Source: a virus. From it: 27,678 nt of DNA. The stretch lies in IMG/VR virus record IMGVR_UViG_3300032047_000105, positions 1 through 27,678 of that record. The stretch is one strand, 5' to 3'. The notes beneath the pieces were generated by a model. That model was not told where the DNA came from. It did no database searches and saw only the letters and a list, made by a program, of their open reading frames with translations. This document shows, piece by piece, positions 488 through 6,638 of this stretch (position 1 is the stretch's first letter; each line of letters starts with the position of its first letter). The position numbers were made by a program, and so were the translations under genes.

Positions 488-679
488 TTAGCGTTGGTCG
501 TTTGTTGGGTCAACTCTTTGTCGTTCAAGTCGTTCAATCTTTACTTCTTCAGGAGCTTCGAAGAGTAGACGTACTTGATTTCTATCTATACGAGCGACAG
601 TAATTAAGACAACTGTATCTTCATCTAATTGTACAGTTACCTGGTCATCACGCTTTCGAGTTAAGACTAGTCGGCTCAT
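488..679 (-). CDS. csrA: CsrA/RsmE-family post-transcriptional regulator
   Basis: The 63-residue protein matches CsrA along its length. Strand 1 is RLVLTRKRDD (family pattern LxLTRR/K), strand 4 is NQVRLLFEAPEEV, and the next strand KIERLER carries the arginine equivalent to the RNA-binding Arg44 of E. coli CsrA. CsrA dimers bind GGA-containing loops, often over ribosome sites, and repress or stabilise mRNAs. The start codon directly follows the DNA polymerase stop (TAAATG), so translation is probably coupled. CsrA is normally a cellular regulator; in a phage it could retune host metabolism or time phage genes. The primase leader just downstream contains two GGA motifs, AGGAGG and ATGGA, making it a possible target. 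Family assignment is secure; targets are inference. Confidence 0.93.
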   Translation of the reverse strand: MSRLVLTRKRDDQVTVQLDEDTVVLITVARIDRNQVRLLFEAPEEVKIERLERQRVDPTNDQR

Positions 680-2479
680 TTATTTACTATAGCACTTATC
701 CCATCCACCTTCTGCATCTAAAGGTAAGCCTAATGCCCAAGAAGGTGATTGTGTCATGGTAAATAACATGCTATCCAATTTCTTTTCTGGGTTGTTTTCA
801 TCTCCAATGGCAATGATCTCATCATGGACTGTAAGCACAACTTCGAATTCTTCTCTCTTTTGTATCTCTAGCATTTGATCGCATATAACTATTCTTGCTA
901 GAGCCTGGATAATATTCTCTGTGATTTTCCCACCATATGTGTATTCAGTTTTCTTATTAGATAAGTATTGTAGTTTGCCATCGGGTAGGAGTTGGAGGTT
1001 ATGGTATTTCAGGGCCATACCATTAGGTAATAGTATTGAATTAGGTGCAGCTTCCAGGCACTTATAGGTGTAACTAAAGCGATCTCCCTTCTGCAAACTT
1101 AGAGCTTGTCTCAGGATGCGCTCTGCCCTTTCCCAAAGTGCCGGGATAGCTGCGTATGTGCTACGGTAAGTATTTACTGCCGATAAACACTCTTCAAAGG
1201 GAAGCTCAATTCCAGCCGCTTTTAGTGTGGCTTTAAATTTATGCGCCCCCATTCCGTAGCCCAAACCTAGAATAGCAGTTTTTCCAACGAAGCGTTCTGT
1301 CTCATTTTCTTTTGTGATAGTTCGTCCATACAAATTACTTGCGAACGAAGAATATACATCTGCTCCATGTTCATAGAGTTCTATTAGATTATCCTGGTTA
1401 GCCAACCAAGCTAACATCCTTGACTCAATGTTAGATAGATCAGCTACATACATTAGTTTCCCTTCCGGTGCTTCAAGTACTTTACGTAACTCACTGTTTC
1501 TCGGTAGGTTTTGTAGGTTTATCTTTTCAGTACCTCCAAATCTACCTGTATGTGCTGCATAGTATTTAAGAGGGGCGGGGATACAGCCCTCGGCATTAGC
1601 GCTATCGATAAAGCGTTGTGCTCGTGTCTCATTGAGACGACTTTTAACTGCTTCTCGTCCAGCAAACACATGGGCATACTCTGGGTGTTGCTGTTGCCAT
1701 TGCCGATAGGCTGCATCGTTTTTACCAAAGGCAGGGATGGTCTTGCCTGTGGTAGGACTGGTCTTGGTTGGTATGACCAGCCCCTCCCCTTCCGCCCAAG
1801 CGGAAAACTTTTGATTACTTGCGAGTACATCGCGTTCTAATCCAGAAGCTTCGATAGCTTCTTTACTTTTTCTTTTTTCGTTTTCAAGAAATTGCTGTGT
1901 CTTTGGTATGTTAACTTTGATCTTGGGTTCACAGAACATACGAGTTGTCATGTCAATGATCTCGTATTCTTTTTCAGGTAACTCCAGGCACAACTTCATG
2001 TATATTGCATATGTTAGGTCAACGTCTTGTATGCAGTAGCCAGCAAGTGCTTCTTCAATGTCGGGAGGTAGATCATAAATACCTTTTGCATTTATAAGTT
2101 CTTCGCCTTTACGCATTGTAAAATCATCTGGGAAACATCTTTCTGCTGTGTGTTTTAGACTGGCGGATTGCCCAGGCCAAAGGCCCCTTGCCATAGCAGC
2201 AGTGTCTAAATAATAGTTAGGTTTGTGCCCATATAATTGAGTCAATAAGTAACCATCGAATGGTGTGTTGTGGCACAGTAAGTGTGCTTCTTCCCAATCT
2301 ATATCGTTAAGCCCTACTTCTACTTCGTTCTCGTCAAACCATTCTGTTTCTTCGCCTTCGATTTTTATACCAACTCCCCACACTTTGAACAGTGGGTCCT
2401 TGATATACTCCATCACAGTAAGTTTTGTTAGGGAAACTTTGGTATCAAAGTAGGTTTCAAAATCGAGGGTTATCAACAT
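680..2479 (-). CDS. Family A DNA polymerase with 3'-5' exonuclease domain
   Basis: This replicative polymerase is of the phage DNA polymerase I type. With the ATG at 2479 it is 599 residues. The exonuclease domain shows ITLDFETYF (Asp6, Glu8), CHNTPFDGYL (Asp75) and YCIQDVDL (Asp152), the DEDD metal-binding set. Polymerase motif A is ADLSNIESRMLAW (Asp347), motif B is RFVGKTAILGLGYGMG (Lys400) and motif C is LTVHDEI (His552, Asp553, Glu554). There is no 5' nuclease domain, as usual in phages. I chose 2479 because AAGGA lies 8 nt upstream and the protein then begins directly at the exonuclease strand; a GTG at 2524 and an ATG at 2497 are alternatives with weaker ribosome sites. The gene overlaps the upstream small gene by 23 nt and abuts csrA downstream. 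Confidence 0.93.
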   Translation of the reverse strand: MLITLDFETYFDTKVSLTKLTVMEYIKDPLFKVWGVGIKIEGEETEWFDENEVEVGLNDIDWEEAHLLCHNTPFDGYLLTQLYGHKPNYYLDTAAMARGLWPGQSASLKHTAERCFPDDFTMRKGEELINAKGIYDLPPDIEEALAGYCIQDVDLTYAIYMKLCLELPEKEYEIIDMTTRMFCEPKIKVNIPKTQQFLENEKRKSKEAIEASGLERDVLASNQKFSAWAEGEGLVIPTKTSPTTGKTIPAFGKNDAAYRQWQQQHPEYAHVFAGREAVKSRLNETRAQRFIDSANAEGCIPAPLKYYAAHTGRFGGTEKINLQNLPRNSELRKVLEAPEGKLMYVADLSNIESRMLAWLANQDNLIELYEHGADVYSSFASNLYGRTITKENETERFVGKTAILGLGYGMGAHKFKATLKAAGIELPFEECLSAVNTYRSTYAAIPALWERAERILRQALSLQKGDRFSYTYKCLEAAPNSILLPNGMALKYHNLQLLPDGKLQYLSNKKTEYTYGGKITENIIQALARIVICDQMLEIQKREEFEVVLTVHDEIIAIGDENNPEKKLDSMLFTMTQSPSWALGLPLDAEGGWDKCYSK

Positions 2480-2687
2480 CTTGTTGTTCCTTAGCATCTT
2501 GCTCTTGCCGATCAGCGTATACACTCGCTTCGATCTGCTGGAAGTTTTTGACTATGTCGTCATGTAGATCTGGCATTCTACTTTTTAACCATACAAATGT
2601 GTACTGCAGTTTTTCGTACGAGTTAAAGTCCTGGTTGAGATGTGATTCGATCTTCTTGGATTGCTCCAAGTATTCTTTTTTATCCAT
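2457..2687 (-). CDS. Small acidic hypothetical protein
   Basis: The 76-residue product has no motif I recognise. It is rich in Lys, Glu, Asp and Gln and looks largely helical, with heptad-like spacing of hydrophobics in residues 5-50 and an acidic, glutamine-rich tail (DRQEQDAKEQQD). Its ATG overlaps the stop of the zinc-ribbon gene by one base (TAATG), and its end overlaps the start of the polymerase gene. This tight coupling supports it as a real gene of the replication operon. It might be an accessory factor of the polymerase, but nothing in the sequence shows that. Confidence 0.7.
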   Translation of the reverse strand: MDKKEYLEQSKKIESHLNQDFNSYEKLQYTFVWLKSRMPDLHDDIVKNFQQIEASVYADRQEQDAKEQQDVDNPRF

Positions 2688-3650: not shown

Positions 3651-4628
3651 TTAACCTGCTTGTTGTTCTGAGTCTTCAAGTTGGCGATTAAATTCCGCCG
3701 CACTCCGAGTTTGTCGGTCTCTGTCCCACCATCTTTTCCAATGGCATCCTGCACCGTCTTGCGAATCGACTTGCTTAATGAACAATTCAAGGACTGTTAT
3801 TGCTAAAGGTATGTCGAGTTCTGTGATGGCCTCTGCTATGGGAGCATCGAAGTCTCCGAAACAAGGTCGTGTTATATTTGTTTGATGAGGATGTAATTGA
3901 CCTCGTGATACATAACCAGCTATACGATCTGTACTATTTACAGCTCGGAACCTAACTTCAGTACTTCCATAAGGTAGGCGTGTCATATCAACATACATTT
4001 CAGGTATGTTGATAAAGACTTCTTCACCGAATTCTTCAATGGGGTAGCGTTCCCTGTCTAAGTTATTCACAAGTGCTCTAGTAGCTTTTGTTTTGATAGA
4101 GAATTTGTATCTTGAAGCGTTGTTGTATTCGTTCTCGAACTCTCTTATTTTGAGAGAGCCTGGGATATACAGTTCACTGTTGCGTAAGTTATGGTCCCAA
4201 ATGTCCAGTGAATAGATAGTTGAATTCCGATTCTTTATTTCCAGACGGTCGATTTGATTTCGTAGATGGAATATTTTTTGTTTGCTGTTGGTAAGGTTCT
4301 CTTCTTCTCGAGCTATTCTATTCATCACGTGTTGTTCAGCATCTTCTATGGTGTCAAGAGTCCGCCTTAAAGTTGCCTCTAGTCCTTCAACTCCGTACTT
4401 ATCTCCTCCTGCTAGCTTAGCTATGACCCAAGAAGTAGCAGGGTTCTTCTTGTGTAGCCTAGCTGCTTTTACTTGGCGTCGTGTTTTGGCCAGTTCGATT
4501 CGATATCTTCGTGCGTCGTTATACGCTCGTTCTGCTATGCTTTCCTGAGTACAAAGTGTATCGCTTGCTTGAGCAATAGCCTCTGTATAAGGATGTACTT
4601 CAAGCGTCTTTATTAATTTACCAGGCAT
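3651..4628 (-). CDS. E2-like ubiquitin-conjugating enzyme with N-terminal coiled coil
   Basis: The product has 325 residues. Residues 30-135 are highly charged and helical with heptad character, a probable coiled coil. The C-terminal part carries HPHQTNITRPCFGDF at residues 246-260. In eukaryotic E2 enzymes the HPN motif precedes the catalytic cysteine by 8 residues; here the third residue of HPH (248) precedes Cys256 by the same 8. Upstream strands such as VFINIPEMYVDM and STEVRFRAV fit the E2 beta-meander, and CHWKRWW near 295-301 is a plausible C-terminal element. The enzyme would accept the ubiquitin-like protein from the E1 on Cys256 and pass it to a target. Its start overlaps the JAB gene stop by one base (TAATG). 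The E2 call is inferred from motif spacing plus the E1, JAB and Ubl neighbours; the coiled-coil extension is unusual. Confidence 0.72.
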   Translation of the reverse strand: MPGKLIKTLEVHPYTEAIAQASDTLCTQESIAERAYNDARRYRIELAKTRRQVKAARLHKKNPATSWVIAKLAGGDKYGVEGLEATLRRTLDTIEDAEQHVMNRIAREEENLTNSKQKIFHLRNQIDRLEIKNRNSTIYSLDIWDHNLRNSELYIPGSLKIREFENEYNNASRYKFSIKTKATRALVNNLDRERYPIEEFGEEVFINIPEMYVDMTRLPYGSTEVRFRAVNSTDRIAGYVSRGQLHPHQTNITRPCFGDFDAPIAEAITELDIPLAITVLELFIKQVDSQDGAGCHWKRWWDRDRQTRSAAEFNRQLEDSEQQAG

Positions 4629-5527
4629 TAGCTGTTACCTCCTGTTAGGTGGTGTTGTCTGTTGTATTCTGATTCCAGAGTTTCTCTTTCTTCAATGTCC
4701 ATGCCGTCTAACTCTTCTTGAGTTAGTTGAATGACGTCTCCGTCTACAGGATTTCTATAGACTAATTCATCAGTTCGGTACGGATCGTCCCAGTAACTAC
4801 CGTAGTAATCTTCTGTAGACAGAAGAGAAGGAGTGGGCTGTCTGTTGTTGAAGCTTAGGCTTATCTGCTGCCCCAGCGCAGGCTTTTTTATGGGAGACAT
4901 GTAACTCTTTGTTTGCTTTACGTTTTTCTTTATGAGTTTGTCTAACCTATCACTGAAGTTCTTATCTATAGGCAACGGCATAGGTCCGTTCCATACACAT
5001 TGATGGGCACAGTTGTTATCTACATCGTATATATCAACCTTGGAGTGCCCGTGTTTGTTGTATATGCCACGAATAAATAACTTGCAGCCATTGTCCAGGA
5101 ACTCTTCCACTTGTACTTCGTCCTGGGTCGAGGGGCTAACGCCCATGTTTACATGTGAATGTCCCCAATAGATAAGCTTCTCTGATTCTTTACCTGATTC
5201 TTCCAGCTCAACAGCTAGATCACATAAAGTTTCAGCAGCTATATCTGTCTCGGCTCCATTTACCTTTTGTTCAGGTATATAGATATCCGTTATGGTGAAT
5301 GAAACAACTTCGTCTTTGTCGTTTGTTTCGGTTTCGACAAGTCCAAGCCAACCAACTTCTGTAGATACAGAGTCTACAAGGTATCGAATCGTTGCCCAGG
5401 CAGTGTCTGTGTAAAACACTTTAGGAGGCTTCGGGTATTCGTATTCAAAAAGTTGTTCGGTCTCTGGACTGTCGGATGTGGTATCAAAACTTGCTGATTT
5501 TGATTTCATGTATTGTGTGTAGCTCAT
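4628..5527 (-). CDS. JAB/JAMM metallopeptidase (deubiquitinase-like)
   Basis: The 299-residue protein contains a perfect JAMM zinc site: Glu57 in STEVGWLG, then WGHSHVNMGVSPSTQDE with His123, His125, Ser133 and Asp136 in the pattern HxH-x7-SxxD. The MPN/JAB domain spans about residues 36-175. The rest (180-299) is low in complexity, with Gln-, Tyr- and Asp-rich stretches, and may bind a partner. In known systems such enzymes cleave a ubiquitin-like protein from its targets or trim its C-terminus. Here the neighbouring ubiquitin-like protein ends in Gly-Asn, so trimming one residue would expose a C-terminal glycine. The gene shares ATGA with the E1 stop and TAATG with the E2 start, showing coupled synthesis. 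The domain call is secure; the substrate is inferred. Confidence 0.9.
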   Translation of the reverse strand: MSYTQYMKSKSASFDTTSDSPETEQLFEYEYPKPPKVFYTDTAWATIRYLVDSVSTEVGWLGLVETETNDKDEVVSFTITDIYIPEQKVNGAETDIAAETLCDLAVELEESGKESEKLIYWGHSHVNMGVSPSTQDEVQVEEFLDNGCKLFIRGIYNKHGHSKVDIYDVDNNCAHQCVWNGPMPLPIDKNFSDRLDKLIKKNVKQTKSYMSPIKKPALGQQISLSFNNRQPTPSLLSTEDYYGSYWDDPYRTDELVYRNPVDGDVIQLTQEELDGMDIEERETLESEYNRQHHLTGGNS

Positions 5528-6216
5528 ATCTGGTCCTTAGTCGAGAACATCATGGGTTTAAAGAACACATCTAATTGAGCTGTGGCACACCCGTCATCTA
5601 ATAGGAAGTTCATGAACTCCCATACTGCTAGATTTGCAATGAGTGATGCAGTGGCTCCAACAGATATGCTGGTTCCACAAGGAGACATCTCTCCTTCATC
5701 GTCACTGATTAACGAGTCATACCACCTCTGCAATTGAATGCTGTTTATAGGGGAGAAGTGATATACATTTCCATGCGTTGATGCCATGCGTGTCTCAAAG
5801 ATTTGAAACAACTCACTATCCGCCCCTGTTGATTGTGCACTTACGATTTGTCTACGTGACTTCATCGTGTCAGTGAGCAAGAAAAGAAAGCCATTAAACT
5901 TTCTTTGGTCAACTCGTTCGTTAATGAATTGCATTGGCAATTGATCTTCGGCAATACCTAGTTTCATAGAAGCTAGATGTTTAAGTGCCTGGATCTTAGG
6001 CATACCTATGTGTTGATGTAGATATGCCTGGTTAGCGAGGTTATGTCCTTCTACTTTATCGTAGTCGTACACACTGATGTTGGTCAGACCAAGTTCAATG
6101 AGTGACATAAACACTCTTGACCCAGTAGCACCTGCACCAATGATATGTATGGGGTAGTTGTTGTAGTCATCGGCACGGAATACAGAGTCGTGTCGGATGG
6201 TCGAGATTAAACTCAT
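5524..6216 (-). CDS. ThiF/E1-like adenylating enzyme
   Basis: With the ATG at 6216 the protein is 230 residues. It shows the E1/ThiF Rossmann motif HIIGAGATGSR (Gly27, Gly29, Gly32), the following acidic loop YDYDKVEGHNLANQ (Asp51, Asp53, Asn59, Gln63), a lysine in HIGMPK (Lys74) and LLTDTMKSRRQ (Asp116). These are the ATP and C-terminal-glycine binding features of enzymes that adenylate ubiquitin-like proteins. Only two cysteines occur, Cys180 in SPCGTS and Cys210; Cys180 is the likelier catalytic one. GGAGG precedes this ATG by 4 nt. The frame stays open to 6363, but that extension lacks a ribosome site, begins inside a stem-loop and does not look protein-like. The gene is coupled to JAB by ATGA. 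Confidence 0.9.
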   Translation of the reverse strand: MSLISTIRHDSVFRADDYNNYPIHIIGAGATGSRVFMSLIELGLTNISVYDYDKVEGHNLANQAYLHQHIGMPKIQALKHLASMKLGIAEDQLPMQFINERVDQRKFNGFLFLLTDTMKSRRQIVSAQSTGADSELFQIFETRMASTHGNVYHFSPINSIQLQRWYDSLISDDEGEMSPCGTSISVGATASLIANLAVWEFMNFLLDDGCATAQLDVFFKPMMFSTKDQI

Positions 6217-6422
6217 AGATCCTCCATAGTTAAGGGTTGTAGGGAAACCTTCTCCGCACAGAAGAAAGAAAAATTGGATTACCTGTGCTACACGACTATG
6301 TAGGAGCCGAAGGGGTAGCCAGGCTAGTCTAACTTCTGTACGAAGAAGGCGATTCCCATGCATCTAGCAATAGAGGGAGATGAAACCTCTATGCATGGGA
6401 AAAGAGACGGTACGGTCAGGTC
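6217..6422 (-). promoter_or_regulatory. Structured leader between the Ubl and E1 genes
   Basis: This 206-nt non-coding stretch on the operon transcript is rich in inverted repeats. The largest pairs 6353-6363 with 6391-6401 (11 bp, TTCCCATGCAT) and, after an 8-nt bulge, 6372-6376 with 6386-6390 (AGAGG), leaving a 9-nt loop. Further stems are 6333-6337 with 6344-6348, 6289-6292 with 6299-6302, and 6256-6261 with 6283-6288 (GCACAG). No U-run follows the large stem, so it is not a standard terminator. It may protect or process the mRNA so that the Ubl is made in excess over the enzymes, or hold a small RNA. I found no tRNA or known riboswitch pattern. Confidence 0.5.
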
Positions 6423-6638
6423 TTAGTTACCCTTGGCACCTTGCGAGATAACTACTCGGTCTCCATCAGTCAGGGTATAACCCTGTTCGACGGTTTCAGC
6501 GCCGACTTTGATGGCTTCCGAACCAGTTGGCTCGATGCTTGCTGCACTAAGTGCATCAGCAACGGAAGCCCCCGCAGACAGAGCAACCTCTGTCACCGCA
6601 CCTGGAATGCGGATTACTTTGACGAATATCTCGTCCAT
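6423..6638 (-). CDS. Ubiquitin-like (ThiS/MoaD-type beta-grasp) protein
   Basis: The 71-residue product has a beta-grasp pattern: strand FVKVIRI, turn, strand TEVALS, the loop and helix GASVADALSAASI, then strand AIKVGAE, the segment YTLTDGD and the final strand RVVISQ followed by GAKGN. ThiS, MoaD and ubiquitin-like modifiers share this order, the LTDGD-VxI segment and a flexible tail ending in glycine. Here the last residues are Lys-Gly-Asn, so one residue follows the glycine; a precursor that must be trimmed is suggested, and the JAB enzyme nearby could do it. AGGAGG lies 6 nt before the ATG. It is the first gene of the cassette. A sulfur-carrier role is possible, but the E2-like partner argues for protein conjugation. 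Confidence 0.82.
   Translation of the reverse strand: MDEIFVKVIRIPGAVTEVALSAGASVADALSAASIEPTGSEAIKVGAETVEQGYTLTDGDRVVISQGAKGN

Follow-up and report, generated by a model that had tools for sequence, protein, structure and literature searches.

A putative ubiquitin-like conjugation cassette in the replication block of an uncultivated tailed phage

A four-gene ubiquitin-like cassette

The window, a 27,678-base IMG/VR virus record (IMGVR_UViG_3300032047_000105) from an uncultivated bacterial virus, carried four consecutive minus-strand genes (3651–6638) encoding, in this order, a ubiquitin-like modifier (Ubl), a ThiF/E1-like adenylating enzyme (E1), a JAMM/JAB metallopeptidase (JAB) and an E2-like protein (E2). 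Sequence analysis established that these genes are present and co-conserved, that their active sites are intact and conserved, and that they lie in a replication block. They probably form a working, phage-owned pathway for Ubl conjugation and deconjugation acting early in infection, a reading to which we give a probability of about 0.68. A sequence-only reading of this DNA had already described the cassette as one leftward unit of a phage; what it said of gene content and order, key residues, fold families and replication setting was confirmed by profiles, alignments and neighbouring genes, the E2 through profile similarity and motif. The E1 and JAB genes overlapped by 4 nt (5524–5527) and the JAB and E2 genes had base 4628 in common, indicating that E1, JAB and E2 were tightly coupled. 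Coordinates are collected in Table 1.

Table 1. Positions of the cassette features and of two neighbouring genes in the window
Feature	Position	Strand	Evidence or remark
Ubl, 71 aa, end ...AKGN	6423–6638	-	Family profile vs SAMP2; strong Shine-Dalgarno sequence AGGAGG upstream
Ubl C-terminal Lys-Gly-Asn, predicted JAB cut after Gly	6426–6434	-	KGN ends, tails, tandem units
Highly structured untranslated spacer, Ubl to E1	6217–6422	-	Minimum free energy -75.4 kcal/mol, z -6.2
ThiF/E1-like adenylating enzyme, 230 aa, one domain	5524–6216	-	PF00899, 1.6e-17, 63.9 bits
E1 Cys180, predicted thioester cysteine	5677–5679	-	Cys in 92/92 aligned sequences
JAMM/JAB metallopeptidase, 299 aa, variable C-terminal tail	4628–5527	-	Zinc motif; Prok-JAB in relatives
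JAB zinc motif H123-x-H125-x7-S133-x2-D136	5120–5161	-	Glu57 at 5357–5359
E2-like protein, 325 aa: N-terminal coiled-coil hairpin and C-terminal E2-like domain (~residues 133–325)	3651–4628	-	AlphaFold; UBC profile similarity
E2 active-site segment HPH246–248 ... Cys256	3861–3893	-	Aligned to HPN...C of UBE2D3
Family A DNA polymerase	680–2524	-	PF00476, 8.5e-28; phrog_17, 3e-75; same leftward block
CsrA homologue	488–679	-	PF02599, 1.3e-10; same leftward block

Folds and active sites of the four proteins

The E1 matched the Pfam ThiF model well above its cut-off of 28.1 bits, and the E1 family profile retrieved UBA5 from PDB (6e-13), as well as ThiF, MoeB, UBA1, Cap2 and BubCD. G27, G29, D51 and K74 were invariant, giving the profile match, GxGxxG motif and Asp/Lys residues of the ThiF/E1 superfamily. 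The GAGATGS motif, Lys74 and Cys180 were found where the sequence-only reading had placed them and were conserved across the aligned relatives, with Lys74 in 92/92 sequences and K74, D116, R143 and C180 in every sequence covering them (92–93). For the E1 start, 6216 was preferred to 6363, having GGAGG upstream and fitting homologue lengths.

The JAB zinc site (Glu ... HxH-x7-SxxD) that characterizes JAMM/MPN proteins was complete in the window protein, its HxH-x7-SxxD part as had been claimed, and all five residues were invariant among its relatives (H123, H125, S133 and D136 in 94/94 aligned sequences, E57 in 95/95). At E ≤ 1, Pfam Prok-JAB matched 19 of the 34 family members, 5.8e-5 being the lowest value, but not the window's own JAB; against PDB, the family profile gave a weak match to BRCC36 (E 0.12).

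The Ubl family profile matched archaeal SAMP2 (8.4e-6) and PF1061 (2.2e-5) in PDB, and Pfam ThiS, Ub-Mut7C, RnfH and SAMP2 were matched among family members. The window Ubl thus had both the Ubl-fold profile match and the C-terminal Gly of beta-grasp Ubls. The C-terminus of the family was (A/V/I)KGN, with a KGN end in 52 short Ubl entries (locus copies counted), and other Ubls had further residues after GN, often as a short tail. Head-to-tail Ubl polyproteins of three units (L036 and L099) or two units (L024, L030, L031, L044 and L107) were also found, with G-N at the unit ends in nearly all of them. Since Ubls ended in KGN or carried tails after GN, and tandem forms existed, a processing step after Gly was predicted, for which the JAB would be the obvious enzyme.

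The untranslated spacer between Ubl and E1 was more stable than all of its shuffled versions (0/200 equally stable), and a related structured spacer was present in L004; the window spacer had no Rfam match, and a tRNA search was likewise negative. Hairpins, some of them terminator-like, lay directly 3′ of the Ubl gene in many relatives, and for the Ubl-E2 gene order the post-Ubl hairpin had z < -2 in 11 of 13 relatives. Such hairpins could allow the Ubl to be made in excess of its enzymes.

The E2 family comprised over 100 different sequences sharing a single conserved core, usually H-P-H-x(6-8)-C-x-G ... D-x-A-G. HPH and Cys256 stood at the positions given by the sequence-only reading; H248 was kept in 105/105 and C256 in 105/106 aligned sequences, and the first two positions of HPH were variable (H246 in 54/106, P247 in 86/106). 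The AlphaFold model had a predicted local distance difference test (pLDDT) score of 94.1 over its full length, and the C-terminal domain one of 94.4 with a predicted template modelling score of 0.86. Searches with Pfam, PHROG, NCBIfam and PADLOC hidden Markov models (HMMs) gave no meaningful match, a profile search of PDB matched mainly coiled coils, and the structure matches in BFVD were uncharacterised phage proteins.

The E2 profile was then compared by hhalign with a UBC profile of seven eukaryotic E2s (of which UBE2D3 alone was checked against PDB). The score was 33.7, compared with a mean of 11.4 (standard deviation 1.8, maximum 16.5) for 59 column shuffles and at most 17.4 for other phage families. 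HPN, the catalytic Cys and NPDDP of UBC were in register with HPH, Cys and N-x-x-D-x-A-G of the E2, so that a catalytic Cys and an upstream HPx occurred in homologous context, as in UBC/E2 proteins. Comparison with Prok-E2_B gave 21.8 across the PH...C segment (shuffled maximum 14.5), and with the PRTRC-type E2_D 21.6, near the shuffled maximum of 20.6. Given these search results, and Foldseek matches in PDB that included no UBC among the 50 listed, UBC homology rests on hhalign and the shuffle controls. The protein was interpreted as a divergent E2 bearing a coiled-coil arm, the weakest link among the family assignments.

Two E2 genes were present in several loci. In L021 (4563–5924, same contig as L098), Val replaced the catalytic Cys in the second of two tandem E2 genes, the lone exception at C256; this copy may be an inactive partner resembling ubiquitin E2 variants. 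In L035 (825–5897) the E2-like domain lay within a 1690-aa protein, suggesting that extra domains may be built onto the E2.

Alternatively, the Ubl could be thiocarboxylated like ThiS/MoaD and donate sulfur to a cofactor, tRNA or nucleobase. The Ubl resembles ThiS and SAMP2, the nearest NCBIfam models to the E1 were ThiF-type enzymes (56.9 bits, under the 159 cut-off), and thiF genes of phages often carry thiamine or cofactor annotations. However, the Ubl is accompanied by a conserved E2-like protein with an invariant H...Cys active-site pair, and none of the recurrent neighbours was found to be a rhodanese, ThiG or sulfur gene, making a sulfur-carrier role very improbable.

Recurrence, genomic context and proposed role

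Relatives were sought in IMG/VR, where a JAB scan gave 57 viral loci and an E1 scan 226 relatives, of which 80 were kept; more than 90 distinct relatives per enzyme were obtained, on contigs of up to 208 kb. After loci had been made non-redundant at 90% E1 identity and those near contig ends set aside, 46 of 58 had all four genes together. The set recurred in dozens of phage contigs, with at least five gene orders: Ubl-E1-JAB-E2 (as in the window), Ubl-E2-JAB-E1, E2-JAB-E1-Ubl, E2-E2-JAB-E1-Ubl and Ubl-E2-E1-JAB. Co-occurrence in varied orders argued for selection on the whole set rather than on a single fixed layout. The conservation of the key residues over 92–106 aligned sequences greatly exceeded chance expectation. 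The ratios of nonsynonymous to synonymous substitutions against L004 were 0.17 (Ubl), 0.05 (E1), 0.20 (JAB) and 0.30 (E2), likewise in favour of a working pathway. In L096/L097 (9416–12587) and L101 (9370–12592), the same contig carried a second, divergent Ubl-E2-JAB set within a few kilobases of the first.

Bacterial genomes yielded six loci, all on contigs of metagenome-assembled genomes (MAGs), and these may be phage contigs. Among 395 genomes of one phylum, only the MAG that had led to this phylum scored as the cassette E1 family (4e-86; next 1e-22), and no match to the E1 or JAB was found among 72,556 PLSDB plasmids.

More distant versions were detected in named phages. Bacteroides phage DAC15 (L144), Flavobacterium phage FpV4 (L143) and Dulem virus 41 (L145) had, like the window, adjacent E1 and JAB genes, in their case with a candidate E2-like gene upstream (motif Y-M/I-H-S-H...C-x-G). 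The candidate E2 scored 28.6 in DAC15 (shuffled maximum 17.9), 24.0 in FpV4 (17.6) and, not significantly, 21.6 in Dulem virus 41 (21.0). These E1-JAB genes of Crassvirales and related phages (e.g. DAC15 and FpV4) differed from the cassette in being very divergent (24–27% E1 identity), and no Ubl was recognised at the three loci. In Xanthomonas jumbo phage PhiXhv-12 (L142, 3247–6621), the E1 adjoined an 892-aa E2-like protein with an HPH...C-L-G motif; a small ORF (open reading frame) after the E1 and the next ORF were considered as Ubl and JAB, respectively, and rejected, since neither showed a resemblance by eye. A tblastn search of named phages gave no E2 relative. The genes of DAC15, FpV4 and Dulem virus 41 were annotated as hypothetical or thiamine biosynthesis, and the PhiXhv-12 E1 as a thiamine biosynthesis protein; likewise, thiF of Xanthomonas phage X1 has been classed as an auxiliary metabolic gene (PMC13384950).

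The rightward genes of the window encoded large terminase, portal, major head and other virion proteins, indicating that the contig came from a tailed phage and that the cassette sits in a phage, as had been claimed. The closest terminase matches were from Aeromonas and Pseudomonas phages (42–48% identity). Downstream of the cassette, the leftward block contained genes for a small predicted membrane protein, a zinc-ribbon protein, a family A DNA polymerase and CsrA, the last two named as neighbours by the sequence-only reading. Its “primase-like” neighbour was present, cut off at the very end of the contig, but the family member of this gene in L010 matched a PHROG of replication-origin-binding proteins and not primase. 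The cassette was present on each of the 10 contigs whose polymerase reached ≥68% identity, so that it was core in this phage clade. Among 106 neighbour proteins from diverse loci (counts not exact, since the grouping dropped some E1 genes overlapping JAB), the recurrent annotated families were helicases, polymerases, primase/helicase, DnaB and exonucleases, and none of the recurrent families was structural. An early or replication-linked function was suggested, because the cassette was core in the clade and had replication-type neighbours; the context favours replication or early takeover over the other roles put forward in the sequence-only reading.

In the proposed pathway, the Ubl would be made as a precursor ending in Gly-Asn, and the JAB would cut off the Asn (in relatives, longer tails or head-to-tail copies), exposing Gly. 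The E1 would adenylate this Gly with ATP and take the Ubl onto Cys180, from which it would presumably pass to Cys256 of the E2. The E2 would attach the Ubl to proteins, and the JAB would also remove it from them. Targets would most likely be early-infection or DNA-replication proteins, either of the phage replisome or host proteins meeting it. The coiled-coil arm of the E2 may select them, since no separate E3 gene was recognised and the E2 evolved fastest among the four genes. We tentatively extend this to many tailed phages, which might run their own complete Ubl pathway, including an E2 family specific to phages, as an integral component of genome replication, e.g. for reversible tagging of the phage or host replisome.

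Several observations weigh against a working pathway of this kind. When the confident E2 models were searched with Foldseek, the 50 listed PDB matches included no UBC structure; in the search with the full model the coiled coil drowned out other matches, and the core folded alone likewise gave no UBC among the PDB matches listed. The claimed E2 assignment thus rests on profile similarity and motif. E1 Cys180 and the corresponding stretch of human UBA5 aligned with a score of 16.7, against a shuffled maximum of 16.8, which is only suggestive. Some relatives had no recognisable Ubl or E2, crAss-like phages having JAB-E1 only, and a replication role is only weakly indicated by where the genes lie.

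The main rival to a phage-owned pathway is counter-defence, in which the cassette, or mainly the JAB, would strip or compete with host Ubl conjugates, with the Ubl, E1 and E2 serving as decoys or saturators. Bil and type II CBASS, both bacterial antiphage systems, use the same parts (PMC1779556; PMC11354881; PMC13373217), and cassettes are held by many phages and by few bacterial genomes. The fast evolution of the E2 (51% identity where the E1 is 90%) fits a conflict. A decoy, however, would not need invariant E1 Cys, E2 Cys and JAB zinc site together, and the genes are core in the clade, within a replication block and not a variable accessory island. The hosts of these phages are also not known to have such a defence, and counter-defence is judged unlikely.

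Ubl conjugation in bacteria is known chiefly as antiphage defence or from loci of obscure role. Because such systems are best known as bacterial antiviral defences, a virus-owned set with preserved catalytic residues was unexpected. An intact, recurring phage set with a divergent HPH-type E2 outside Pfam would show that bacterial viruses also own such pathways, and suggests that some phage “thiF” genes labelled as thiamine or auxiliary metabolic in fact encode E1 enzymes. It is also relevant to the spread and diversification of E1-E2-Ubl-JAB sets before eukaryotes, and the phage cassette offers testable substrates.

Comparison with known systems

Iyer et al. (2006) described bacterial operon types 6a–6e and, from phage tail genes, a pair of Ubl and JAB that has neither E1 nor E2 (PMC1779556). 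That pair was the only hit in our literature search for phage-encoded E1-E2-Ubl sets, the coverage of which was incomplete, so that a prior description is possible and the novelty of the phage-borne four-gene set is provisional. Lambda-type TAPI/TAPK (Ubl and JAB-NlpC) likewise comprise a phage-encoded Ubl and JAB, but they are tail-assembly genes with no E1 or E2, whereas the cassette lies in a replication block.

Type II CBASS (Cap2/Cap3) and 6A-MBL systems share E1, E2 and JAB parts with the cassette, and the PHx(n)C active-site segment of Prok-E2_B resembles its HPH...C. Cap2, however, is an E2-E1 fusion tied to a CD-NTase, whereas the cassette has separate genes and a dedicated Ubl; no such fusion was found in it, and no CD-NTase was recognised among the scanned proteins of the leftward block.

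PRTRC operons, which we take to be type 6d of Iyer et al. (2006), also encode Ubl, E1, E2 and JAB as separate genes carried by mobile elements. In the type 6d E2 the His before the Cys is missing and a conserved His follows the Cys, whereas H248, upstream of the Cys, is invariant in the cassette E2. The PRTRC E1 model of NCBIfam (TIGR03736) gave 32.8 against a cut-off of 144.75, and the other three cassette proteins had no match to NCBIfam PRTRC models.

Bil (bacterial ISG15-like, BilABCD) shares four separate genes for Ubl, E2, JAB and E1, and its Ubl tail is trimmed by its JAB. BilA has two Ubl domains, whereas the window Ubl has one (2–3 in some relatives); the BilB motif is CEHH, in which the catalytic His follows the Cys, whereas the cassette E2 has HPH before Cys256 and no invariant His after it; and BilD has an inactive and an active adenylation domain, whereas the cassette E1 is a single 230-aa domain. 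Bil is a bacterial defence, and the cassettes lie in phage replication blocks. With the same four parts, and tandem Ubl forms in relatives, a phage-carried cassette could conceivably tag the virions of competing phages, in the manner of Bil, and exclude superinfection. We consider this improbable, since the CEHH motif and two-domain E1 that define Bil are absent. Exclusion genes are usually accessory, whereas the cassette is core to its phage clade and lies among replication genes.

Compared with the eukaryotic UBC protein UBE2D3, the cassette E2 has an insertion before HPH, its Cys at a helix start and an N-terminal coiled coil, but in both the Cys comes 10 residues after the first His of HPx and is followed by an NPDDP-like segment, and their profile alignment is significant.

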